From IMG/VR virus record IMGVR_UViG_3300012199_000007, positions 1-20,319 of that record: a DNA stretch of 20,319 nucleotides. The stretch is one strand, 5' to 3'. How positions within the stretch are numbered: position 1 is the stretch's first letter; each line of letters starts with the position of its first letter. Below, in pieces: positions 1,595 through 18,134 of this stretch. The position numbers were made by a program, and so were the translations under genes. The notes beneath the pieces are model-generated. The model was not told the origin of the DNA, did not search any database, and was given only the letters and a program-made list of their open reading frames with translations. The DNA is from a virus.

Positions 1595-1852
1595 TCACCT
1601 GCTTTCTGTTAGGCTTCCTGCTTGTTTTTGCTGTTTAGCATACGCACTCTGCTCAGATGGCGTTGCTAGACGATGACCGAACCTTTGCAGTTCCTCAACA
1701 TCATGCTCTCTGGCATGATCAGGAGGATCTATCTCTAGGAAATGCCCTTTCTGCTGATAGTTCCTTACAGGCGTATGCACTCCTGCTATGATCTTTTCGT
1801 TAAGAGCAACATGCCCATCGCTATTCTGTTCGTGGTACATGAGAATTGACAT
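1595..1852 (-). CDS. Small hydrophilic protein after the major capsid gene
   Basis: 85 residues, unrecognised. It starts MSILMYHEQNSDGHVALNEK, is rich in His, Gln and Glu, and has no membrane segment or cysteine. Its start codon overlaps the capsid stop as TAATG, so translation is probably coupled and the protein made in proportion to the capsid. Phages often keep a short head gene at this spot, so a minor head protein or assembly helper is plausible but unproven. Confidence 0.65.
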   Translation of the reverse strand: MSILMYHEQNSDGHVALNEKIIAGVHTPVRNYQQKGHFLEIDPPDHAREHDVEELQRFGHRLATPSEQSAYAKQQKQAGSLTESR

Positions 1853-3294
1853 TATGCGGCCCTCACTCTTCCAATTTTTGCAGCAAACGCAGGTGCTCGT
1901 AGCGCCAGCGTCTTATCAGCATTCAAGGCAAATTGACGCGATCTGGCATTGATGACAGCGAGAAGCTCGGTCTGAATCGGGTTGACTTCTGGGCAAACGA
2001 GAATGTCCGGATCACGTGGGATGAGGTAGATATCCTCAGTGACCTGGGTGCCAGTCTGGACACGAGGGAAGGTCACACCATCGGAAATGGCATTAGCCCC
2101 GGAGCTAGCAATGGTAGCCCAATACAGGGTATTAGTGACTGCTGGGTTTTGGATCAATCCGGTATCCGTGAAGGAGGTTACCGCAGCGTCATTGATGTCA
2201 TAGGCTGCAACCAATGCATACAAGCTCTCAGCGCCACTAGAGGTGCTGCGGAATATCCGATACCCGAGGATATCGATCACATTTCCATCGGCGTCTGTGG
2301 GAGCTGGTGTTAGCCAAGTGAGAACAACGTTCTTACCATCGGCAGAAGGCGTTTGTGATGCCTCAGCACTGGCAGCGGTCAATCCGTATCTGGTGACCGC
2401 CTCCATCCGGTAGTAGTAGGTATTTGCAGCAAGAAGGGAAGAGCCCGTGCCAGTGTTACCTGTGGTAGAGATGGTTCCCATGGTGCCCTGATTGCCCATG
2501 AATGAGGAAATGATGATGGGGATATTGCGGTATGACTCAACTTCAACACCAGCATCAATAGCATTATCTGCTACAGGTGCGCTCGGATCTCCATAGTCAT
2601 CACGCAAGAACATGCGTTTCATCACTTGATTGTAGCGTGCATTCTGGACGTGCAAGCCATTGATGTAGGATTGCATCTTTGGGCTCATCATCCAGAAATA
2701 GTCCATGCCAAGCTCTTGAGCATAGCGACCACGCACGGCATCAATAGCATTGTCCATCATCTGAAATGCGAGGAGCTGAGTGTTGGCATCGATCTTGTTG
2801 GCGTTGGCAACCATGAGGTCCACGCCATCCCACTGGGGTCTCTTTGTGTTGAGCGTGGCTGCCGCTGAGCCATACATATGCGTGGTCTCCTCTAGCCACA
2901 CCATCGCTTTCGCATGAGCCCCAAGCTCAAGGTCAAACAGGTTCCCGTTCGCACGAGCGACCTGAACCATAAACTTGGACAGATCCCCGATGGACTCGGT
3001 ATGCTTGATCGGAAATTGTCCCTGGACATAGGTCGAGTTGCTTGCCGCGACCGAGCCCGTGCCGCTGGTTGGAGGTGCCTCTAACGTATGTTGAGGCTGC
3101 GGGAGTGCTGTGCGCTTGTTGAAGTAGAAGATGTCCGTCTCCCATGTCTGACGCGGTATTGCTCTGCCTAGCGGTCCCCACTTGCGTTGAAGCTCGGTAA
3201 GGGTGCTGTCAATCCGCTTGAGAATAAGATTGAGTGAGCCCCCTGTTGAGCTGAGTGAGAACACCTCCCTGATCTCTCTGAGTGATACTGGCAT
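1852..3294 (-). CDS. Major capsid protein with an Ig/FN3-like insertion
   Basis: 480 residues. Gene order (terminase, portal, protease/scaffold, this gene) and its size identify it as the major capsid protein; the fold is probably HK97-like. Residues 1-265 form the shell part, with a long helical stretch near 120-140 and a central segment around 195-235 (FWMMSPKMQSYINGLHV) of the kind seen in phage capsid proteins. Residues about 275-385 look like an inserted fibronectin-III/Ig-type beta-sandwich (NTYYYRMEAVTRYGLTAAS, then LGYRIFRSTSSG, then TSFTDTGL), followed by a return to capsid-type sequence (EDIYLIPRDPDILVCPEVNP, 420-439) and a basic C-terminus. Such domains usually project from the outer surface and may bind cell surfaces. 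The start overlaps the protease stop as TAATG, with GGAG eight bases upstream. Confidence 0.85.
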   Translation of the reverse strand: MPVSLREIREVFSLSSTGGSLNLILKRIDSTLTELQRKWGPLGRAIPRQTWETDIFYFNKRTALPQPQHTLEAPPTSGTGSVAASNSTYVQGQFPIKHTESIGDLSKFMVQVARANGNLFDLELGAHAKAMVWLEETTHMYGSAAATLNTKRPQWDGVDLMVANANKIDANTQLLAFQMMDNAIDAVRGRYAQELGMDYFWMMSPKMQSYINGLHVQNARYNQVMKRMFLRDDYGDPSAPVADNAIDAGVEVESYRNIPIIISSFMGNQGTMGTISTTGNTGTGSSLLAANTYYYRMEAVTRYGLTAASAEASQTPSADGKNVVLTWLTPAPTDADGNVIDILGYRIFRSTSSGAESLYALVAAYDINDAAVTSFTDTGLIQNPAVTNTLYWATIASSGANAISDGVTFPRVQTGTQVTEDIYLIPRDPDILVCPEVNPIQTELLAVINARSRQFALNADKTLALRAPAFAAKIGRVRAA

Positions 3295-3806
3295 TAAAAA
3301 TCTCCAATCTGGACATTGCCGTCAAAGCTCTGCTGAGCATCCATCCATCCCATGAGTTGCACTTCAAGCTCTTTAAGATCCCGTTCGGCGTTGTACCACT
3401 CAGGTTTAGGTCTACTACGGTCAAGCAGCTCAAGTTGCGTGTTGGGATCTCGCAACTGATCACGCATGTAATCCCCATGGCGATAGTATGGCTTCTTGGG
3501 CTTCTCTTGCTCATTAGAGCCCTCAACCATACTCTTTCGCTGAGGGAACGTACGAGGCGCAAGCTTCTGTTGCATTTCTTCAAGCTTCTGAGTGAAAGCA
3601 TTCTGCATTTCAAGCATCTGCTTTCCGATCTTTTCGTCCCAGATCTCCTCTTGCGTCTTGGGAGGTGCTACAGTGTAGCCAGCCTCTTGCAAGAGTTTGA
3701 GCGCATCCTCAGCAGTAGGCTTGGGTGGCTCCTTCTCAGCTTTCTGTTGTTGGGCGAAAGCCTCTTGCAACTCCTTCAGGAGCTGCTTTTTCTCTTCTTC
3801 AGTCAT
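3294..3806 (-). CDS. Nested in-frame scaffold protein (internal start)
   Basis: Within the protease/scaffold gene, codon 354 is an ATG (3806-3804) preceded by AAAGGAGCAACCT, an excellent ribosome binding site with seven-base spacing. Starting here gives a 170-residue protein (MTEEEKKQLLKELQEAFAQQ...) that holds exactly the coiled-coil scaffold region and the C-terminus. Lambda makes Nu3 from within gene C in the same way, so separate scaffold synthesis in excess over protease is a reasonable inference. The site and frame are seen directly; use of the start is not proven. Confidence 0.5.
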   Translation of the reverse strand: MTEEEKKQLLKELQEAFAQQQKAEKEPPKPTAEDALKLLQEAGYTVAPPKTQEEIWDEKIGKQMLEMQNAFTQKLEEMQQKLAPRTFPQRKSMVEGSNEQEKPKKPYYRHGDYMRDQLRDPNTQLELLDRSRPKPEWYNAERDLKELEVQLMGWMDAQQSFDGNVQIGDF

Positions 3807-4865
3807 AGGTTGCTCCTTTGTTTCTGGAGATGCAGGCTTGTCACCCGTACTCTCCTTCTTACTTTCTTTGCATTCCATACCTAGAAACGATGCTAATCCA
3901 CTATGTGCATGTCCCAGGTATTCTAAAGTCTTTGTACTAAACTTTGCTCCTACCTCAGTGATGCCTAGAAACTTTAGTGCAGCATCGTGCTCTATATTCT
4001 CAGGTGCGCATTCTAGACCTATTGCTTTTGCGAGATAGTTGTGAGTGGTTTCTAATGATGGTAGATTTAATGCTTCATTGGATGGTTTTACTTCTTCTAT
4101 GAGAGCGGTGTCTTTGAAGGTGAATACTTCGCGAATGTCTTGTGGCTCTTTGGACTCGGAGACGTACTCGACGCGTGCGTTAGGGATGCCTGGAGATGAG
4201 GTGAAGTCGATGCCAGTGAGACGGATGTTCTCGCCCCCAACCATCGGATAGGGCTCATTGTTGTCGATGTACATCTCAGCATTGATGGCTCGCAGACTCT
4301 GAGACTTGATGTAGCCACCTTTGACCAGATTGACGACCTCGTGGCCTGCTTGTGTGTCTGGTACATCAATGAGAGCAAAAGCTTGCGTGCCTTCCTTGCC
4401 TATCGCTGCAACCTTGCCGACGATCTCACGGGTAGCATCAGCATATGCAGCATCATGGGAAAGGTAAACAGTGAGAGGGAGCGCGTTCGAGTCGGAGAGT
4501 TGGACTTGAGCAGCTTGTATGAGGCGATTGACGGTCTGTGCAGGGTACTTTCTGCCATTGAGAGAGGTGGCATCATCCTCCAGAAAGACAGACTTCACAC
4601 GTGCTATGCGGTTTGTCGCCTCTTTCTTTCCATCCTTGGCAGTGTCAGGAAGGGCAGAGGTAAGCCCCAGGCGTGCGGCGATACTCTTGATCTTGGAACG
4701 TACAGCATCAGGATTAGCAGCATGACCAGCAAGGTTCCACGCGTCTTTTACATCGCTTGCATCTTTTATGGGGTATGACTTGTTTGGTCCAGCGAAGTTC
4801 TCAGGATGCTCAGCATAGTATGCATCTCTTGCTGCTTGTGTCCATTTTGCTTCGTACAGCTCCAT
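3294..4865 (-). CDS. Prohead protease fused to a scaffolding domain
   Basis: 523 residues in three parts. Residues 20-75 (FAGPNKSYPIKDASDVKDAW, then KIKSIAARLGL and LPD) match the short N-terminal motif found on many phage proteases and related head proteins. Residues about 88-235 look like a herpes/HK97-fold serine protease: His137 in LSHD, the strand IVGKVAAIG, then DTQAGHEVVNLVKGGYIKSQSLR with Ser188 or Ser190 as likely nucleophile, and LTGIDFTSSPGIPNA. From about 330 the protein is Lys/Glu/Gln-rich and predicted coiled coil, as in scaffolds removed by proteolysis during maturation. It lies immediately before the major capsid gene, as in many siphophages. A second in-frame start at residue 354 may make free scaffold. 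A terminator-like hairpin lies just before the ATG. The catalytic residues are my alignment by eye. Confidence 0.8.
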   Translation of the reverse strand: MELYEAKWTQAARDAYYAEHPENFAGPNKSYPIKDASDVKDAWNLAGHAANPDAVRSKIKSIAARLGLTSALPDTAKDGKKEATNRIARVKSVFLEDDATSLNGRKYPAQTVNRLIQAAQVQLSDSNALPLTVYLSHDAAYADATREIVGKVAAIGKEGTQAFALIDVPDTQAGHEVVNLVKGGYIKSQSLRAINAEMYIDNNEPYPMVGGENIRLTGIDFTSSPGIPNARVEYVSESKEPQDIREVFTFKDTALIEEVKPSNEALNLPSLETTHNYLAKAIGLECAPENIEHDAALKFLGITEVGAKFSTKTLEYLGHAHSGLASFLGMECKESKKESTGDKPASPETKEQPMTEEEKKQLLKELQEAFAQQQKAEKEPPKPTAEDALKLLQEAGYTVAPPKTQEEIWDEKIGKQMLEMQNAFTQKLEEMQQKLAPRTFPQRKSMVEGSNEQEKPKKPYYRHGDYMRDQLRDPNTQLELLDRSRPKPEWYNAERDLKELEVQLMGWMDAQQSFDGNVQIGDF

Positions 4866-5151: not shown

Positions 5152-5350
5152 GCATTCTTTCCTTCATACTCTGCAAGCTTCTTCCTTGCCTCTAGAAGCT
5201 CATTGATCACATCCCCTAGTACCATGTCAGCATCTTCTTCGTAGGGAGGGATGCGCAATGCTTTGCAGCAATTTATAGATGGAAAGCATTGCGCATCTCT
5301 TCTTCTGTTCTATACCTGTATATCTTCTTCAGCTCAGTTATTCTAGCCAT
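5148..5350 (-). CDS. 54-codon small protein gene split by a 38-base hairpin segment
   Basis: The ATG at 5350 has GGAG seven bases upstream and overlaps the end of the portal gene. Codons 1-20 read MARITELKKIYRYRTEEEMR. Straight reading then gives only NAFHL and a TAA (5275-5273) inside the loop of a perfect hairpin. If the 38 bases 5290-5253 are skipped, from one CGC codon (5293-5291) to a second CGC at the far end of the hairpin (5255-5253), the frame continues as IPPYEEDADMVLGDVINELL and so on to a TGA at 5148, which overlaps the next ATG as ATGA. The joined 54-residue protein is hydrophilic and coherent, and has normal coupling at both ends. Either the ribosome bypasses the hairpin, or the gene was broken by a palindromic insertion. 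Function unknown. Confidence 0.5.
5250..5297. repeat. Perfect 15-bp inverted repeat inside the split small gene
   Basis: The arms are GATGCGCAATGCTTT (5250-5264) and AAAGCATTGCGCATC (5283-5297), with no mismatch and an 18-base loop. Each arm holds the palindrome TGCGCA, so the same six bases also form a direct repeat. There is no T-run on either side, which argues against a terminator. The in-frame stop lies in the loop. See the split gene at 5148-5350. Confidence 0.9.
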
Positions 5351-7505
5351 TCTCTTGCTCCACATCCAATGAATACGCGTATCTCTCATCACCAATCGCC
5401 AGCCACAACAGATCAAAGTTGAGATCAATAGCAGGAACGCTCCCTATTGGCATAGGATCACTAGCAGGGATATACGAGAGGGTTATGTGAGCCGTAAAAC
5501 CATGCTCAGTGTTAGGTGGATAGCCAGCATCTTGCAAGGCTCTCACCAGCCCTTGACGCCACTCAGGTAGCCCCGGTGAGTCTATAGACGCATAGACAGG
5601 AGTGGGTTCACCATCGGGTACTGAGGTGAAACGGCCTATACCAGACACGCGTCCTTGTAGCGCAGGCGCATTCTCAGCATAGGATGATACAGCTTGCTTT
5701 AGTTTGTCTGTATTCCCCAACTGGCTCTTGTCCCCCAGGAAGACTAGCGTGCAATGTAGTTCGTCGATAGGTTCTCCAGTGGGTAGAACCAAGGCACGAG
5801 CCTCGCTAGGCTTCAGGAAGAAACCGACCATGACACCAGTCCAGTTCGCCTCTTGCATCTGGCGTTCTAGTCGAACGGTTTCAGCTATGCAGGCATTTGT
5901 AGCCGCTTCACGCTGCTCTGGAAGGCGGAAAGCATGGCTCAAAAGATATGCAGGATCATACTCTGGTGGCATATGACGAAATTTGCGCATATTCTCATCC
6001 TTCTGCTTGGGAGGTTGCTTGTCCCCATCTTGATTATCATCAGGATTGTCCTGACCTTGCTGCATAGCCTGTTGAGCACCTTGCAGTGAAAGTTGAGCTT
6101 GCTGGTTCTGTTCATCCTCTAAGGTCTGCAAGCGGGCCACTGGTGTGATGATATTGCCAGTAGTAATGGTAGCAATATCCCCGCCTGGGATAGAGATACG
6201 CCCTCGTTCCTGGCGTGCCTCATCACGAGTAAGCGTACCGTTATTGATCTCTTTATTCGCAACTTCAGCTATTTCATTATCGTCCCTGAAATCCGCATGC
6301 CTCGTTTTTACCTTCCAGTCTTCTACCCTTAATCCCGTCTTCACTGCTCTATAATTCATCTTCTCAAGTATCCTATTTTCTAGCGGTATGACCTTATTAT
6401 AAATAAAAGATTTGTTCTGGCTCTCACCTGTACCGCCGCCTATATTGCCGCTCTCGATAATACCTAGCATAGCAGGTGGGACGCCATACACAACCAGTGC
6501 CCTACGCTGCTGATCGTCCTGACTGCCACGGAAATCCATCTCAATAGAGCCTTTGCCAAACTCCTGTATCTTTCCCCCTCCATACATGATAGGAGGTATA
6601 TGCGCGTTCTGTATGCCTGTGTAGTTTTCCGAATACCACTTACGGTAGCGTTCGGCGTCATCTTCGTTGGAGTCCGGTCCCATCTCGACCCAGTAGCTTG
6701 GCTTCCCACCTTGCCGAAAGAACTTCTCACCCCATGTGACCATGCTCCGATCTAAGAATACCGGGTCTTTCAGCTTCTCGATAGGTGAGAGAGCCTTCTT
6801 CTTTGCGCGCGGGTCAGGCAACCACCAGCGGATAATCTCACGTGGCTCAAAGTCCACCGTGTCTGTACTCTTCTCCAATCTCTGCGTATATCCTGTAATC
6901 ACGCCATGCCTGTCAAACTGTGTGTTCATTGTTAGGGAGTCGATTGTGTAGAGATTGCGCACCATGCCATCAGGACCGTAGACCATCTCACAGAAGGCTT
7001 CACCAAATATAAGCATATCTGTTGCAATAGAATTAAAAAACTGCAAGAAATCTTCTTCAACATCTTCGAAATTAAATAACGCTTTTACTTTTGCTTCGTT
7101 GGCGGCATTCCCCTTACCTTGCTCAATCTCAACAGTCTCCCAGCCACCGGATATCATGCGTTCTGCTGTAGTATCGACACAGCCTGAAACCCACTGATTG
7201 CCGCAATACACCTGATAGTAGGTGTCCTTCTTCTGCCTGTCATCGAGAAAGCCTTCCCGTGTCTGGACACTGCCAAGCCCAAGCGACGTGTCATCCCATG
7301 CCATGGAGAGGTTTTTCGGACCTCTGGACTGTGGAACTTTTGCACTGCGCTTCGTTGCGGCTTCCAGGTTGAGCACGCCGACGTTGCGCTCGAACATCTC
7401 TGAGGTATGCGAATCGATATCATATGTGGGAGGAGCATATGGGCGTTCTATCACACGTGAACGTCGCTTCTTTGTGCGTATCCAGTTGGGGAAGCTTATC
7501 GCCAT
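5343..7505 (-). CDS. Portal protein fused to a C-terminal 2H phosphoesterase
   Basis: 720 residues. Residues about 60-460 are the portal, the dodecameric ring through which DNA enters and leaves the head: YYQVYCGNQWVSGCVDTTAERM, LIFGEAFCEMVYG, EPREIIRWWLPDP, YGVPPAMLGII and NNGTLTRDEAR are typical of HK97/SPP1-type portals. A Gln/Asp-rich linker (about 460-505) leads to residues about 555-715, a 2H phosphoesterase (LigT-like) domain with both catalytic motifs, His584-Cys-Thr586 in LHCTLVFLGD and His673-Ile-Thr675 in AHITLSYI. Such enzymes act on 2'-5' or cyclic phosphodiesters of RNA and nucleotides; some phage members (Acb1) destroy cyclic nucleotide signals of CBASS defence. An ordinary portal is about 400-500 residues, so the extension is real and in frame. 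An internal ATG at 5990 could release the enzyme alone. The start at 7505 has AGGAGG upstream and overlaps terL by ten bases. Confidence 0.88.
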   Translation of the reverse strand: MAISFPNWIRTKKRRSRVIERPYAPPTYDIDSHTSEMFERNVGVLNLEAATKRSAKVPQSRGPKNLSMAWDDTSLGLGSVQTREGFLDDRQKKDTYYQVYCGNQWVSGCVDTTAERMISGGWETVEIEQGKGNAANEAKVKALFNFEDVEEDFLQFFNSIATDMLIFGEAFCEMVYGPDGMVRNLYTIDSLTMNTQFDRHGVITGYTQRLEKSTDTVDFEPREIIRWWLPDPRAKKKALSPIEKLKDPVFLDRSMVTWGEKFFRQGGKPSYWVEMGPDSNEDDAERYRKWYSENYTGIQNAHIPPIMYGGGKIQEFGKGSIEMDFRGSQDDQQRRALVVYGVPPAMLGIIESGNIGGGTGESQNKSFIYNKVIPLENRILEKMNYRAVKTGLRVEDWKVKTRHADFRDDNEIAEVANKEINNGTLTRDEARQERGRISIPGGDIATITTGNIITPVARLQTLEDEQNQQAQLSLQGAQQAMQQGQDNPDDNQDGDKQPPKQKDENMRKFRHMPPEYDPAYLLSHAFRLPEQREAATNACIAETVRLERQMQEANWTGVMVGFFLKPSEARALVLPTGEPIDELHCTLVFLGDKSQLGNTDKLKQAVSSYAENAPALQGRVSGIGRFTSVPDGEPTPVYASIDSPGLPEWRQGLVRALQDAGYPPNTEHGFTAHITLSYIPASDPMPIGSVPAIDLNFDLLWLAIGDERYAYSLDVEQENG
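5988..6003 (-). promoter_or_regulatory. Possible internal ribosome binding site for a free 2H phosphoesterase
   Basis: Codon 506 of the portal gene is an ATG (5990-5988) preceded by GAAGGATGAGAAT, which gives AAGGA with seven-base spacing. It sits exactly between the Gln/Asp-rich linker and the 2H domain; starting here would give a 215-residue stand-alone enzyme (MRKFRHMPPEYDPAYLLSH...). The site is visible; use is inferred. Confidence 0.35.
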
Positions 7506-8983
7506 GCTAATTCATCCTCCTCTTCATACTGTTGCTGCTCTTTCTCTTCTTCAGTTTGTTTGTCTACTACCATACCTCCAATGCGTTTCAGCGGTTCAAT
7601 GTATAAACAATTGAATGATCCACTAGAAGCGTCAACCGGATCATCATGTACCGCTTCATCAGGGAATGCGCATAAGAAATTGAGATAGCCATTGTTCCAC
7701 CAAGCCCTAAGCAATCCCACATTCCCTACTTTGCACTGAGCTGCAAAGGTATCTGCTCGCAACTCTTTTGAGCCAGTTGATGGAATACCCTCCACATCAT
7801 AGCCTACCAGCACTTTCGTCACAAAGTTAAATATATCCTGCTTTCCGCTACTCCCACCTTCTTGCTCAATCCTAACAGCCACGCTACGACTATCCTGCTC
7901 TGCAATGGCCTTAATTAACGCCTCAACACCACCCGGGTCAAGCTGGTCCCACGTGGCATCCAAGACTACATAACGCGGGTACGCTCCCTCTTTACGTCTC
8001 CCTACGAGCACTGAAGCCGTATAGTCCGGTCCGTTGCGTCTACTGTTCTTCTTCTTGAGAGCTGTAGCAGCCTTATCCCAGAACCTGAGTTGTTTCTCGA
8101 TATCGAGAGGAGGGTCATCAAAGTATGTCGTAAACCATTCCCGTTTGAACTTCTTTCCAGATGGCCGAGCATTCCAATCACCCCCCAGCAGCCTCTTTTT
8201 CTCGAACTCTGGTAGCGCATGCAGGCCCGCTTCATACTCTGGATTGATTTCCATCAACCGCTTGTTGTCGTACAGGTTCGCAAAGAAGAAGGTGATACTG
8301 ATAGCAAAAGGTGTATCCTTGTCTACCCACTGGATTGTGTCATCCTTACGAACAAACCAGCGTATCTCACCAGACTCGGCTTTATCCTCAGCAGGCCACG
8401 TGTCATCTACCCATGGCGCTAGAAGCACCTTCACCCAGCTATCAGGATCTGGATTAGTCATAGCCCTCATGCGAGGTGTCACACCAGACACTGACCTGTT
8501 ACGAGAGAAGAGATAGAAGAATTGATACTCACTTGTCTCTGTAGCCTCGTCTACCTCAATAAGTGCAATCTCTGAGCCTTTCCATCCAAGTACATCATGC
8601 TCATACTGCATGTGAGCAAAGCGTACTTTAGCACCGCTTGGGAATGTCCATATCATATCGGTCTTGTTATATGTCGCTCCGAGCTGCGGATAGATTTCGT
8701 ACGAACGAGGAACAAGACCGCCAGGAGCTGTTAGCTGCTTATGGATACGGCGGAATAGGACAGCCTCAAATTGTGGATTGTCGATATCATAGAGCGGTTC
8801 TAGAAGAGCAGCATAGGATTTACCACCACCAGCGGCACCGCCGTAAAAAACCAACCTGGCTGGACTTCGCAAGAACTCCTCTTGAGGCCCTGGCTGTGGC
8901 CTGATTACTTCAGGACTCACTACTGCTGGCAGGTGAATCACCTCCTTTCTGCTCTTCCTTCTTTTCTGGAAGCTGTACAGCAT
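7496..8983 (-). CDS. terL: Terminase large subunit (packaging motor)
   Basis: 495 residues from the ATG at 8983. The N-terminal ATPase has Walker A GGAAGGGKS (48-56) and Walker B IALIEVDEA with Asp145-Glu146, followed by MTNPDPDSWV, the usual coupling region. The C-terminal RNase H-like nuclease has Asp303 (RFWDKAA), an acidic pair in RIEQEGGSSGKQ (Glu373/375) and Asp447/448/451 in VHDDPVDASSG. The protein pumps DNA into the prohead through the portal and cuts the concatemer. It ends in a Glu/Gln-rich tail. The start is uncertain: the ATG at 8983 overlaps the small subunit by 74 bases with a weak binding site. A near-perfect AAAGGAGGTGAT lies inside codons 13-16, followed by a CTG (8932) and a GTG (8920). 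All alternatives keep the ATPase domain intact. Confidence 0.93.
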   Translation of the reverse strand: MLYSFQKRRKSRKEVIHLPAVVSPEVIRPQPGPQEEFLRSPARLVFYGGAAGGGKSYAALLEPLYDIDNPQFEAVLFRRIHKQLTAPGGLVPRSYEIYPQLGATYNKTDMIWTFPSGAKVRFAHMQYEHDVLGWKGSEIALIEVDEATETSEYQFFYLFSRNRSVSGVTPRMRAMTNPDPDSWVKVLLAPWVDDTWPAEDKAESGEIRWFVRKDDTIQWVDKDTPFAISITFFFANLYDNKRLMEINPEYEAGLHALPEFEKKRLLGGDWNARPSGKKFKREWFTTYFDDPPLDIEKQLRFWDKAATALKKKNSRRNGPDYTASVLVGRRKEGAYPRYVVLDATWDQLDPGGVEALIKAIAEQDSRSVAVRIEQEGGSSGKQDIFNFVTKVLVGYDVEGIPSTGSKELRADTFAAQCKVGNVGLLRAWWNNGYLNFLCAFPDEAVHDDPVDASSGSFNCLYIEPLKRIGGMVVDKQTEEEKEQQQYEEEDELAWR

Positions 8984-9545
8984 AGAATTCGACCCGCCCT
9001 AGCAAAGAAGCATCATCCTTCCCTGTCAATTCCTGCTTTGTCATCTTCACACGTTCACCTTTTTCTTTTGCTATATCATCAAATGTCGCCCTATACTCAC
9101 TAACAAGAGCATCGTTAAATTTCTTCAGATGATGCGCCTCAAACCCTACTGCCTTTATATCGTCTACCCATCGCTTATCATCGTCATCTACTTCTTCTTT
9201 AAGCATTTTAGCAAGATCATTCAATTCTTTAATACGATTATGTTTTAGTGCAAATTCTGATTTAGATATCTCTTCTTCTTCTAATGATATACGCTTATCA
9301 CGCTCATCTCTATAGTGCTTATCCCAAGCTTCAGCTCTTTCGTTCCATTTCCATTCTTCAGCTATTTTGTACCACTTACCAGCTATTTTTGTCCGTACTT
9401 TTCCGTGTTTTTCCGTCTCTTCTTGCTCAAAAACAGCATTAACCGATCGTTCCCATGGCTTCATGATCCTAAATTTATCGAACCTAGAGAACCATTTGAG
9501 AGGCTCACCCTCCATTCTTTCCCATGCTTTTCTCTCTCCATCCAT
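8910..9545 (-). CDS. terS: Probable terminase small subunit
   Basis: 211 residues, directly upstream of and overlapping terL. It is very rich in charged residues. The segment WERSVNAVFEQEETEKHGKV, then KIAGKWYKIAEEWKWNERAEAWDKHY, is of the kind found in phage terminase small subunits and related DNA-recognition proteins, where a helix-turn-helix-like N-terminal part is followed by a long helical oligomerisation region (about 85-160 here). The tail is Ser/Glu-rich (GGDSPASSSES). The assignment rests on position and composition; no classic motif is decisive. Start ATG at 9545, with GGAAGGA upstream. Confidence 0.7.
   Translation of the reverse strand: MDGERKAWERMEGEPLKWFSRFDKFRIMKPWERSVNAVFEQEETEKHGKVRTKIAGKWYKIAEEWKWNERAEAWDKHYRDERDKRISLEEEEISKSEFALKHNRIKELNDLAKMLKEEVDDDDKRWVDDIKAVGFEAHHLKKFNDALVSEYRATFDDIAKEKGERVKMTKQELTGKDDASLLGRVEFYAVQLPEKKEEQKGGDSPASSSES
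8930..8948 (-). promoter_or_regulatory. Very strong Shine-Dalgarno inside the annotated start of terL
   Basis: The minus strand reads AAAGGAGGTGATTCACCTG, which matches the 16S anti-SD over AAGGAGGTGAT. The only start-like codon of the terL frame at normal distance is CTG at 8932-8930. The nearest standard start downstream is GTG at 8920, too far for usual spacing. It may point to a CTG start, or it may simply be coding sequence (KGGDSP in terS, RKEVI in terL). Confidence 0.45.
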
Positions 9546-10382: not shown

Positions 10383-11300
10383 CTAGAATAGGTTATCTGT
10401 AGCGCCTACTTCAATCTCTCGTAAGTCATACTTGACCGTTGTTTCTATACGCTTGTGCCCTAGAGCTAATTGAGCACTGCGAATATCTTTCTTAGCGAGT
10501 TGCGTGCCGACGAACCGTCTGAAGTCATGAGGCTTGATATTTTGAAGTCCCTGGGCTTCTGTAATCTCCTTGACGACCTTCCAAGCTCCTTGTGGCGAGA
10601 TGTGATTAGTGAGTGGCTTATGAGCCCTTCCATCGAACGAGGTGAAGATATACTCACTAGCAATGGTACGAGCTGCTAGCCATTCCCTGATAGCTTCCAC
10701 AGCCTCTGCTGATATGTGAGCTTCCCTGTCCTCATCCTGGTTTTTTCCTATCTGAGCATACATATGCAAGAGGTAGCCATCACCACGCGGGATAACTTGC
10801 TCAGGTTTCAATTGAGCCAACTCATTGATACGCAATCCAGATGAGGCAAGCGTGGTAAAGAGAGCTACATTGCGTAAACCTACAAGCGTTGACGGGTCTA
10901 TGGAGTCAATAAGCAATCTCATGGTTTCAGGCTCTATTTTGACTCTGTTGCTGATTTTAAGCTTGTCTTTCATTGCACCGACTTTAACACCATCAACGTG
11001 TTTAAAAGCTTCTGCTACTTCATATTTGATATAGCCTTGATCAGCAGCTAGCTTCATGACTTTCTTTATAGCACTTATCATTCTGTTGATAGTATTTGGT
11101 GACATATCTGTCCCTTTAGCAAGATATGTTATCCATCGTGCCAAGGTTGATGATTTTAACGCATTCTCTCTTGAGCCAGCATAAGACAAATATGCATTAA
11201 GATCTCTCTTGTACATCTCCATAGAAGAATCGTTGACACGCCCGGCAAGAATGGATACATCGAAATCTAATTGAAACGGAATGATGTTATTGTCTGTCAT
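10383..11300 (-). CDS. int: Tyrosine recombinase (phage integrase)
   Basis: 305 residues. The N-terminal SAM-like core-binding domain covers about 20-105 (MYKRDLNAYLSYAGSR, then TINRMISAIKKVMKLAADQGYI). The catalytic domain carries the full set: Arg157 in SGLRINEL, Lys186 in QIGKNQ, His258 and Arg261 in KPHDFRRF, His282 in LALGHKR, and the nucleophile Tyr291 in VKYDLRE. It inserts and, with an excisionase, removes the phage genome by strand exchange at att sites. There is no AP2-type arm-binding domain, so it is a short XerC/D-like integrase. The start overlaps the HNH gene as ATGA, and both probably come from the promoter near 11850. It sits between the early genes and the terminase block. 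Confidence 0.93.
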   Translation of the reverse strand: MTDNNIIPFQLDFDVSILAGRVNDSSMEMYKRDLNAYLSYAGSRENALKSSTLARWITYLAKGTDMSPNTINRMISAIKKVMKLAADQGYIKYEVAEAFKHVDGVKVGAMKDKLKISNRVKIEPETMRLLIDSIDPSTLVGLRNVALFTTLASSGLRINELAQLKPEQVIPRGDGYLLHMYAQIGKNQDEDREAHISAEAVEAIREWLAARTIASEYIFTSFDGRAHKPLTNHISPQGAWKVVKEITEAQGLQNIKPHDFRRFVGTQLAKKDIRSAQLALGHKRIETTVKYDLREIEVGATDNLF

Positions 11301-11767
11301 AGCGCACGCTCCTCAATATACCGTAAAAGAGATTTTATTCTATCAGGATCTTCTCCCAATAACCCGAGAGCCTGATTACAGGAACTGCATAGTAGACCTC
11401 GAATTAATCCAGTAGCGTGGCAGTGATCAACATGAAGCATAGGGATCTTTCCCTCTGATCGATTGTTTCTTCCAACTATTCTTGTTTCCTCTCTTCCGCA
11501 ACAAGCACATACACTATTTTGTTCTTCAAGCATTGCATCATACTCTTCAGTACTAAGTTTGTATTTGTGCTTTAAGTGTATCTCACGTCCTCTGCGAAGA
11601 GTATATCTTTTGATCTTTATGTTGTTTATACATACTTTACACCAGGAAGTTACATCGAATGCCTTTCCTTTTTCAGGGGAGTATTCAGATAGGTCTTTAT
11701 GCTCATCACACGATGGACATTTCTTTCTACCTAATGCATCTAACGTCACACGAGGTCCTCTTGACAT
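11297..11767 (-). CDS. HNH endonuclease, recombination endonuclease VII type
   Basis: 156 residues. The N-terminal part has two CxxC pairs (Cys17/20 and Cys43/46), a zinc ribbon. The C-terminal half matches the endonuclease VII family: YKLSTEEYDAMLEEQNSVCACCGRE with Cys87/Cys90, then HVDHCHATG with Asp114-His115 as the beta-beta-alpha metal active site, then GLLCSSCNQALGLLGEDPDR with Cys127/Cys130 and Asn131. T4 endonuclease VII resolves branched DNA before packaging; small family members in phages are often of unknown or homing-like function. Here it is coupled by ATGA to the integrase, so it might help with recombination intermediates. The start has AAAGGG nine bases upstream. Confidence 0.85.
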   Translation of the reverse strand: MSRGPRVTLDALGRKKCPSCDEHKDLSEYSPEKGKAFDVTSWCKVCINNIKIKRYTLRRGREIHLKHKYKLSTEEYDAMLEEQNSVCACCGREETRIVGRNNRSEGKIPMLHVDHCHATGLIRGLLCSSCNQALGLLGEDPDRIKSLLRYIEERAL

Positions 11768-14486: not shown

Positions 14487-15077
14487 TTAACATGCAATAT
14501 GATTGTACTTTCTTAAGAACATCTGTATTGCTACATCAGGCACAAGCCACTCATCAAGAAACATATCATCTGCCATATTGCAAGCGAACCAAATATCCTT
14601 CTCTTTCCATTCTTTATTAGTCCCTGCTAACCATATAGTTTTGTTAAGTGCTCTTGCATATCCAATTTCTGCAAGAGTCCCATAACATGTTGTGCATTCA
14701 AGCCAGGCAAAGACGATATCAGAGCGCTTAATAGCATCCATACACCAATCCACAACAGCGCTTTGTCTAGAAGGAAAGTCCGACCCATAGACATATCCTG
14801 GTGTTCTCTCACCACTATCCTCATCCATTTCATCAAACTCGGCACCCATACCATGCGAATTGTGCCCATGAAAGCATCCATGATCGTCAGAAACAAAGTA
14901 TGGTCCTGTATAATCAAGTCCGAACACGGCTCCGGGAAGAACAGGCCATTGCGCCATGGGAGTTGCATCGCATCTCCCTCCACACGTGCCTGCAAAAGTT
15001 CCCCGCAAACCTTTGATTATCTTATGTCTCCAATCACCTTTTGAGATCTTACCAGCCAGGTAAATTGATTTAGTCAT
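14487..15077 (-). CDS. Nucleoside 2-deoxyribosyltransferase-like protein
   Basis: 196 residues. MTKSIYLAGKISKGDWRHKI matches the N-terminal strand and loop (YLAGKI/P...W) of nucleoside deoxyribosyltransferases and related N-glycosidases. RSDIVFAWLECTTCYGTLAE, IGYARALNKTIWLAG contains the typical SD-hVhAhL strand and the catalytic-type Glu137 in GTLAEIGYA. Between them is a Gly/His-rich insertion (VSDDHGCFHGHNSHGMGAEF), which I recall from one branch of this family. The family swaps or hydrolyses the base of (deoxy)nucleosides or nucleotides, so a role in nucleotide pools, DNA modification or defence-signal removal is possible. It lies between primase and small early genes and is flanked by a direct repeat, so it may be a late-acquired cassette. 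Confidence 0.75.
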   Translation of the reverse strand: MTKSIYLAGKISKGDWRHKIIKGLRGTFAGTCGGRCDATPMAQWPVLPGAVFGLDYTGPYFVSDDHGCFHGHNSHGMGAEFDEMDEDSGERTPGYVYGSDFPSRQSAVVDWCMDAIKRSDIVFAWLECTTCYGTLAEIGYARALNKTIWLAGTNKEWKEKDIWFACNMADDMFLDEWLVPDVAIQMFLRKYNHIAC

Positions 15078-17825: not shown

Positions 17826-18134
17826 ATGCAACAACCGAATAGCGGTCGGAATCTGGGAAGCCAGATTGAGGCTGCTCGTGAGCGCAAGAGTAAGAAAAAT
17901 GGTGGATATACTCTGTATAGGCTTGCCAAAGATGCAAAGATGGATTATTCTCAGTTGCATCGGGTCGTTCATAATAAGTCGATGCCGTCGCGTGATAAGT
18001 TAGTGAAGATCTGCGCTGCCTTGGGGTGTAGTCTAGAAGAGGCAAGAGAGATATTCGAGGCCACTGAATACCGGGCTCCTTCCTCCGAAGATTTGGAGAG
18101 GAGCCCACAAGATCGCATAGCAACCGCAGTGTAG
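17826..18134 (+). CDS. XRE-family helix-turn-helix regulator (repressor candidate)
   Basis: 102 residues, the only gene on the plus strand. The Cro/CI-type domain covers about 25-80: GGYTLYRLAKDAKMDYSQLH, RVVHNKSMPSRDKLVKICAA, LGCSLEEAREIF. The N-terminus is basic (GSQIEAARERKSKKNG) and the short C-terminal tail has no protease-like or oligomerisation domain. GAGGTGAT five bases before the ATG is a near-perfect ribosome binding site. A divergent position to the helicase operon with an operator-like repeat between, and an own terminator, fit a lysogeny repressor or Cro-like switch. No RecA-sensitive domain means an SOS cleavage mode is not evident. Confidence 0.85.
   Translation: MQQPNSGRNLGSQIEAARERKSKKNGGYTLYRLAKDAKMDYSQLHRVVHNKSMPSRDKLVKICAALGCSLEEAREIFEATEYRAPSSEDLERSPQDRIATAV

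Follow-up and report, generated by a model that had tools for sequence, protein, structure and literature searches.

Why should the portal protein of a phage continue, within a single open reading frame, into a phosphoesterase of the 2H superfamily, and where would such an enzyme act? The question is raised by a 720-residue protein of a soil phage, encoded in a 20.3-kb virus record (IMGVR_UViG_3300012199_000007; the whole stretch of 20,319 nucleotides is hereafter called the window), which served as the source of the gene calls and of the neighbour map. The reading that we favour, and to which we give about even chances, is that the portal carries the 2H enzyme into the head for delivery, the enzyme then acting on the host's RNA or signalling nucleotides.

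Genomic setting

On the minus strand the genes follow one another in the order small terminase (weakly matched), large terminase, portal-2H, a small ORF, protease/scaffold and major head protein (Table 1). The fused gene thus sits among late head genes, with terL, portal, protease and major head protein in sequence. As in known head-borne effectors of the portal, MuF and polyvalent kinds, a putative effector domain is fused to the portal and its gene lies within the late head module.

Table 1. Features of the portal-2H gene and its neighbours (positions in the window)
Feature	Position	Strand	Basis
Portal-2H fusion gene, 720 aa	5343..7505	-	ORF calls, Pfam, PHROG; single full-length AlphaFold2 model with fold matches to both HK97 portals and 2H enzymes
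HK97-type portal domain, aa 106-434	6204..7190	-	PF04860, E 5.1e-39; Foldseek 8cez, 8fql (HK97 portal)
Gln/Asp/Lys-rich linker and helical spacer, aa 465-552, holding the possible internal start	5850..6113	-	low pLDDT, dN/dS, variable length
2H phosphoesterase domain, aa 556-713	5367..5840	-	PF13563; phrog_14859; AlphaFold2; Foldseek 1iuh, 5h7e, LigT; dN/dS 0.08-0.11
First catalytic motif HCT, His584 (residues 584-586)	5748..5756	-	His invariant, n=88 sequences
Second catalytic motif HIT, His673 (residues 673-675)	5481..5489	-	His invariant, n=88 sequences
Possible internal start: AAGGA, 7 nt, ATG; 215-aa product	5988..6002	-	sequence; absent in L003/L005; weak
Large terminase, upstream neighbour, overlaps portal start	7496..8983	-	phrog_979, E 6e-125; Terminase_6N/6C
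Probable small terminase	8910..9545	-	phrog_6299, E 1e-3, weak
Prohead protease/scaffold-like protein	3294..4865	-	phrog_207 head maturation protease, E 1.5e-7; Peptidase_S77, E 3e-4, below cut-off
Major head protein	1852..3294	-	phrog_752, E 9e-14

A portal and a 2H enzyme in one chain

A preliminary description of this DNA, made from its letters alone, had proposed that a complete portal is followed in frame by a 2H domain, and this is borne out within the single 720-residue ORF: the Pfam portal model PF04860 (Phage_portal) is matched at residues 106-434 over nearly its full length (profile positions 3-320 of 321; 134.8 bits against a cut-off of 39.1), the PHROG portal family matches the same protein at E 8e-49, and the 2H domain lies beyond. 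Since the score against the HK97 equivalog TIGR01537 (88.1 bits) falls below that model's cut-off of 112.05, the portal is to be regarded as divergent and as distinct from the HK97 equivalog proper. The full-length AlphaFold2 model is confident in the portal and 2H parts, with a low-confidence linker between them, and a fold search with it retrieved HK97-type portals and 2H enzymes in a single chain.

The two parts are likewise fused without a stop in viral contigs of other samples, namely L002 (79% identity), L003 and L005 (74%) and L004 (82%), which represent three distinct lineages, since L003 hardly differs from L005. Stops separating the portal from the 2H domain in relatives had been named beforehand as an observation that would speak against the proposal; none occurs in these fused proteins, while some close relatives have a portal with no 2H domain. 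A frame or assembly artefact was rejected on the strength of these four fused relatives from other metagenomes, and by these comparisons the portal-2H fusion is genuine.

The C-terminal domain as a 2H phosphoesterase

Pfam 2_5_RNA_ligase2 (PF13563) matches residues 582-684 of the full protein at E 3.4e-6 (27.6 bits, with a cut-off of 27) and reaches 30.4 bits against the same cut-off when the 215-residue part is searched in isolation; phrog_14859, which is labelled 'RNA ligase' but is really a 2H family, covers residues 553-713 at E 2e-27. A PHROG 'head maturation protease' family matches as well, its profile including the same 2H domain. The HxT motifs that had been read at His584 and His673 stand exactly there, as HCT and HIT; both histidines are invariant in all 88 aligned domains, and Thr586 and Thr675 are threonine in 86 of the 88.

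An AlphaFold2 model of the domain, built from these 88 aligned sequences, has a mean pLDDT of 92.6 and a pTM of 0.86, and its top PDB matches in Foldseek are all 2H enzymes, with E values down to 3.5e-9; the bilobed 2H fold, whose failure to appear would have told against the assignment, is therefore predicted. The best matches are Thermus TT0787 (1iuh, E 3.5e-9), the Deinococcus CPDase and E. coli LigT, and below this ThpR/LigT group come the rotavirus VP3 2',5'-phosphodiesterase, Usb1 and Acb1; a profile search of PDB sequences gave the same order, with ThpR/LigT closest. Among viral models, the nearest folds are head-region proteins of actinophages, many of them labelled 'RNA ligase'. The domain is a genuine and conserved 2H phosphoesterase that very probably has catalytic activity.

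The linker and a possible internal start

The Gln/Asp-rich linker described between portal and 2H domain is present; it falls below a pLDDT of 50 at residues 486-512 of the full-length model, and its length differs among relatives. At the domain border an ATG at 5990 is preceded, 7 nucleotides upstream, by AAGGA, which had suggested that the 2H part might also be made on its own. The ATG and its AAGGA do exist, but the case for initiation there is weak: internal ATGs with a Shine-Dalgarno match as good or better occur at 6 of 117 in the window's genes, the stretch AAGGATGAG doubles as Lys-Asp-Glu codons of the charged linker, and the site is absent in the fused proteins of L003/L005. There the whole segment is missing, with no ATG, GTG or TTG in its place, and upstream of the first strand of the 2H domain no start codon is closer than 153 nt, leaving aside an ATG inside that strand; L004 and L002 have an ATG at the same place with shorter Shine-Dalgarno matches. 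A conserved internal start as a general feature was accordingly rejected, and separate production of a 215-residue form is possible in the window, with no conservation among the fused lineages.

This site bears on an alternative whereby the enzyme would act in the cytosol late in infection, the 2H domain of newly made portals, or the product of the internal start, removing CBASS-like signals in the producing cell with no delivery by the virion. Phage head genes are expressed late, which would suit such timing, and an enzyme acting in this manner would not need to be released from the portal. In T4 infection, moreover, Acb1 activity and CBASS killing are both late (PMC9117128), and the ATG at the domain border recurs, as described, in two fused relatives. 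We nonetheless consider late cytosolic action unlikely, given that L003/L005 have no such start, that equally good internal sites are common, and that it leaves unexplained the constant tie to head genes and the fusions to portal, MuF, protease and capsid proteins described below.

Constraint, gain and loss

Among the fused relatives dN/dS is 0.08-0.11 for the 2H domain and about 0.02-0.07 for the portal, whereas the linker mostly gives 0.16-0.27, above the folded parts (one pair at 0.06, one not computable), all of these values being rough because synonymous sites are near saturation. A dN/dS of about 0.1 and histidines invariant in 88 sequences imply that the 2H domain is under constraint and has been kept in an enzyme-like state. 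Nevertheless, the nearest portal, that of L006 (90% over 343 tree columns of the portal region), has no 2H domain, and searching the contigs of the portal-only L006, L007, L008 and L009, which may be incomplete, recovered none anywhere on them. The idea that these four are broken fusions was rejected on that basis, with the same limit of possibly incomplete contigs, and the domain is, as far as these sequences tell, dispensable to the portal.

In a phylogeny of 49 portals the 2H domain is gained or lost at least nine times, six of these events being forced by well-supported branches, a count that is rough because the set is biased towards 2H carriers and relatives of the query and because some long branches meet. 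The fusion is retained across a clade of 28 tree rows, 26 of which are recognised portal fusions. The preliminary description had left the frequency of the fusion open: close relatives commonly have it, and publications of 2017 and 2022 had already described portal-2H proteins as well as MuF-2H ones.

Could the domain then be a passenger, a neighbouring gene that became joined to the portal when a stop codon was lost, and that has no role in the virion? Fusion by read-through would be easy, since in L100 (at 54 bases) and in L010 an unfused 2H gene comes immediately after the portal, and L006 manages with no 2H domain. Such an origin would hardly account, however, for a dN/dS near 0.1 with invariant catalytic residues, nor for a fusion kept throughout the 28-row clade (26 recognised) and recurring with four portal families, so that we regard a chance passenger as very improbable.

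Separately from the 2H domain, a MuF-like Cys/His motif, CxxCxxNDGxVxxxGxxFPxGxxxPxxHPxCxC, ends portals with and without 2H (L009:129-1925, L024, L029, L034, L040); it is found in L009 despite the lack of a 2H domain, and the clade of the window does not have it.

Head partners of the wider 2H family

Scanning with the domain alignment yielded 365 related stretches in viral contigs, of which 80 were kept, and 22 in bacterial genomes; L015 and L016, matched in the first scan, were dismissed as unrelated chance matches. By local profiles, 42 of 96 non-redundant domains are portal fusions (35 HK97-type, 3 SPP1-like, 3 Phage_portal_3 and 1 Mu-type), 22 are joined to protease-type proteins, 3 to MuF and 3 to capsid polyproteins, and 26 have another, an unrecognised or no partner, proportions that are not representative of phages at large because the sample was picked by similarity to the window. 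Pfam confirms portal-2H-MuF in L023 and L027, Portal_Mu-2H in L066, Phage_portal_3-2H in L076, MuF-2H-S78_2 in a Tumebacillus genome (L101), S78-2H in L068 and L105, 2H with Phage_capsid_4 in L037 and L113 and ART-2H in L013, with SPP1_portal-2H in L061 falling below the cut-off. The partners thus comprise four portal families, MuF, S78-type and Mu-like prohead proteases, capsid polyproteins and an ART. Where a 2H gene is unfused and a portal is recognised at the same locus, the portal precedes it on the same strand by 54-3797 bases in 24 of 24 cases and follows it in none. From these architectures, the common denominator of the family is the phage head rather than the portal.

The ART-bearing protein of L013 (3678-7417, 891 residues) has ADP-ribosyltransferase and 2H domains and is followed by another protein, upstream of a prohead protease; both adjacent proteins bear repeated DEHGRFGSG-like motifs, which might serve as a signal for packaging or for cleavage.

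Relatives of the domain occur in genomes of Chloroflexota, Actinomycetota, Bacillota and Deinococcota, and an attempt at host assignment found no close portal-2H protein in 47 genomes of the class containing the Ktedonobacterales contig. Cultured carriers are phages of Arthrobacter, Gordonia, Mycobacterium and Streptomyces, in which the proteins usually go by the names 'RNA ligase' or head maturation protease; Streptomyces phage TP1604, considered as a named portal-2H example, was rejected as its protein is MuF-2H. Orf10 of Gordonia phage GMA2 ends in a 2H domain in which the two HxT motifs are both found; it carries the label 'putative structural protein' in a study that ran mass spectrometry on purified virions (PMC4524720), although the label may rest on homology. 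Orf18 of GTE6, likewise with a 2H domain, is called hypothetical. The 'RNA ligase' of Thermobifida phage P318 is Rnl2-like and encoded outside the head genes, and a 'phosphoesterase', ORF9, was detected in its virion. Our literature search found no virion proteomics of a phage with exactly the portal-2H arrangement.

A naming problem is also apparent, hundreds of actinophage 'RNA ligase' records being head-tied 2H phosphoesterase proteins. Actinophage records named 'RNA ligase', 'aldolase' or 'head maturation protease' (e.g., KU160664 gp18 and OR521074 gp17) carry a 2H domain.

Comparison with known enzymes and the likely substrate

ThpR/LigT (1iuh, 5h7e, 5ldi) provide the top structural and profile matches and share the two HxT motifs, but their identity to the 2H domain of the window is only about 16-19% and they are free enzymes, whereas that of the window is fused to a portal; the domain scores 32.0 bits against the ThpR/LigT equivalog TIGR02258, below the cut-off of 65.7. 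This kinship in predicted structure bears on the possibility of RNA end healing, in which the 2H domain would open 2',3'-cyclic phosphate ends left by host defences that cut tRNA and a ligase would rejoin them, the closest solved structures by both profile and fold being RNA 2',3'-cyclic phosphodiesterases. Yet RNA ligases score over cut-off in very few contigs that carry a 2H domain, many of which are fragments (PF09414 in 1 of 40, the T4 Rnl1 type in 1 of 37, RtcB in 0 of 37), and a published survey never met such 2H forms alongside RNA ligases (PMC5512222). An RNA-repair operon was rejected because these three ligase families are nearly absent; the earlier suggestion of RNA end repair is thereby weakened. 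Repair as the main role is disfavoured by the rarity of ligases, leaving nucleotide signals or RNA cleavage, and we judge end healing to be quite unlikely.

Cleavage of RNA would be the function if the domain were a Usb1-like nuclease of host takeover, trimming or cutting the RNA of the host once it has entered the cell. An RNase role for portal- and MuF-fused 2H domains has been proposed by analogy with PBECR RNases fused to the same proteins (PMC5512222), and the structural matches include Usb1. In L008, moreover, a close relative whose portal has no 2H domain, the next gene (6555-7169) encodes a predicted 3'-5' exoribonuclease (PF16473, E 2e-10), another enzyme acting on RNA and occupying this slot. 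As a match Usb1 ranks below ThpR/LigT, however, and a takeover nuclease seems to us improbable, slightly more so than end healing.

The earlier comparison with Acb1 proved weak. Acb1 (7t26, 7t27) is phage-encoded and shares the superfamily fold and the paired HxT motifs, but it is a free protein, its Foldseek TM-score of 0.44-0.46 stands well below the 0.69 of 1iuh, and its Pfam family PF23474 gives no match to the window protein at E<=1, on which ground membership of that family was rejected. Some relatives match PF23474 weakly, below the cut-off, and an Acb1-type function of the domain is possible. A further parallel is the C-terminal 2',5'-phosphodiesterase of rotavirus VP3 (4rpt, 4ye2, 5af2), a structural match in which a 2H domain is likewise joined to a structural or virion-core enzyme, in an unrelated virus and with an unrelated fusion partner. 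The VP3 domain is used against 2'-5' oligoadenylate.

Proposed delivery from the head

In known portals, which are dodecamers, the C-terminal end is on the crown side, in the capsid interior. Because the C termini face inward, assembly itself would bring some 12 enzyme copies into the prohead by way of the fusion. The preliminary description had built the enzyme into the virion at the DNA exit; its place in the portal chain stands, but the location has to be qualified, the C-terminal side being that of the capsid interior. For the same reason the enzyme would have to be freed from the portal before it could get into a cell. The flexible linker might be cut during maturation, for instance by the neighbouring prohead protease (3294..4865), which we infer as a candidate; the freed enzyme would then be ejected with the DNA into a new host, whose RNA or whose 2'-5'-linked or cyclic (oligo)nucleotide signals it would hydrolyse.

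The attachment of related domains to different head proteins in many phages makes the 2H domain look like a head-borne weapon against the host. An accessory enzyme that needs a location in the head is best explained by packaging and delivery, and a conserved, head-tied 2H domain fits virion delivery with an anti-signalling or RNA-directed role. Among the points that count against this reading, a 2H domain covalently held by the portal stays put unless it is cut, and the predicted structure is nearest to the RNA-processing ThpR/LigT enzymes rather than to Acb1.

More tentatively, and in our opinion with the odds against it, the stretch after the portal could be a swappable cargo slot in which the linker serves as an address, bringing 12 copies of an interchangeable effector into the prohead, from which it would be cut and ejected, the same 2H module using alternative addresses in portal, MuF, protease and capsid polyprotein. 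Effectors other than 2H in such a slot would perhaps be an exoribonuclease or an ADP-ribosyltransferase elsewhere.

The portal-2H combination, and injection against nucleotide signalling, are already in print. Iyer et al. (2017; PMC5512222) described portal-2H and MuF-2H fusions among polyvalent, early-phase phage effectors, and a survey of NAD+-ADPr systems in 2022 (PMC9503650) repeated them and proposed that they are packaged and injected to counter signalling by SMODS (CBASS), cyclic mononucleotides and CRISPR. The published proteins resemble that of the window in domain combination, head-module setting and proposed purpose; they are mentioned in one sentence and a figure, and the protein of the window has no MuF part. 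What is new here is the comparison of near-identical portals that have or lack the domain, the constraint on it, a structural model nearer to ThpR/LigT than to Acb1, and further partners in the form of prohead protease, capsid polyprotein and three other portal families.

If it travels in the virion, the enzyme could let the phage disarm defences built on nucleotide signals or RNA as it enters the cell, ahead of all phage gene expression, in contrast to the known free anti-CBASS enzymes, which act later. The natural contrast between near-identical portals that carry the domain and those that do not (the window against L006, at 90% in the portal region) makes the question directly testable.

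Other features of the window

A defence-family library returned zero matches. The major head protein (1852-3294) has an inserted, fibronectin-like looking stretch at about residues 275-385 with no Pfam match, the sole nearby PHROG match being a weak one to an unknown family. A nucleoside 2-deoxyribosyltransferase-like protein is encoded at 14487-15077 (PF15891; PF05014 barely over the cut-off). At 10383-11300 a tyrosine recombinase (integrase) gene overlaps an endonuclease VII-like gene (11297-11767), and the integrase suggests a temperate phage. A Cro/C1-type helix-turn-helix gene at 17826-18134, on the strand opposite to the remaining genes, is a candidate repressor.
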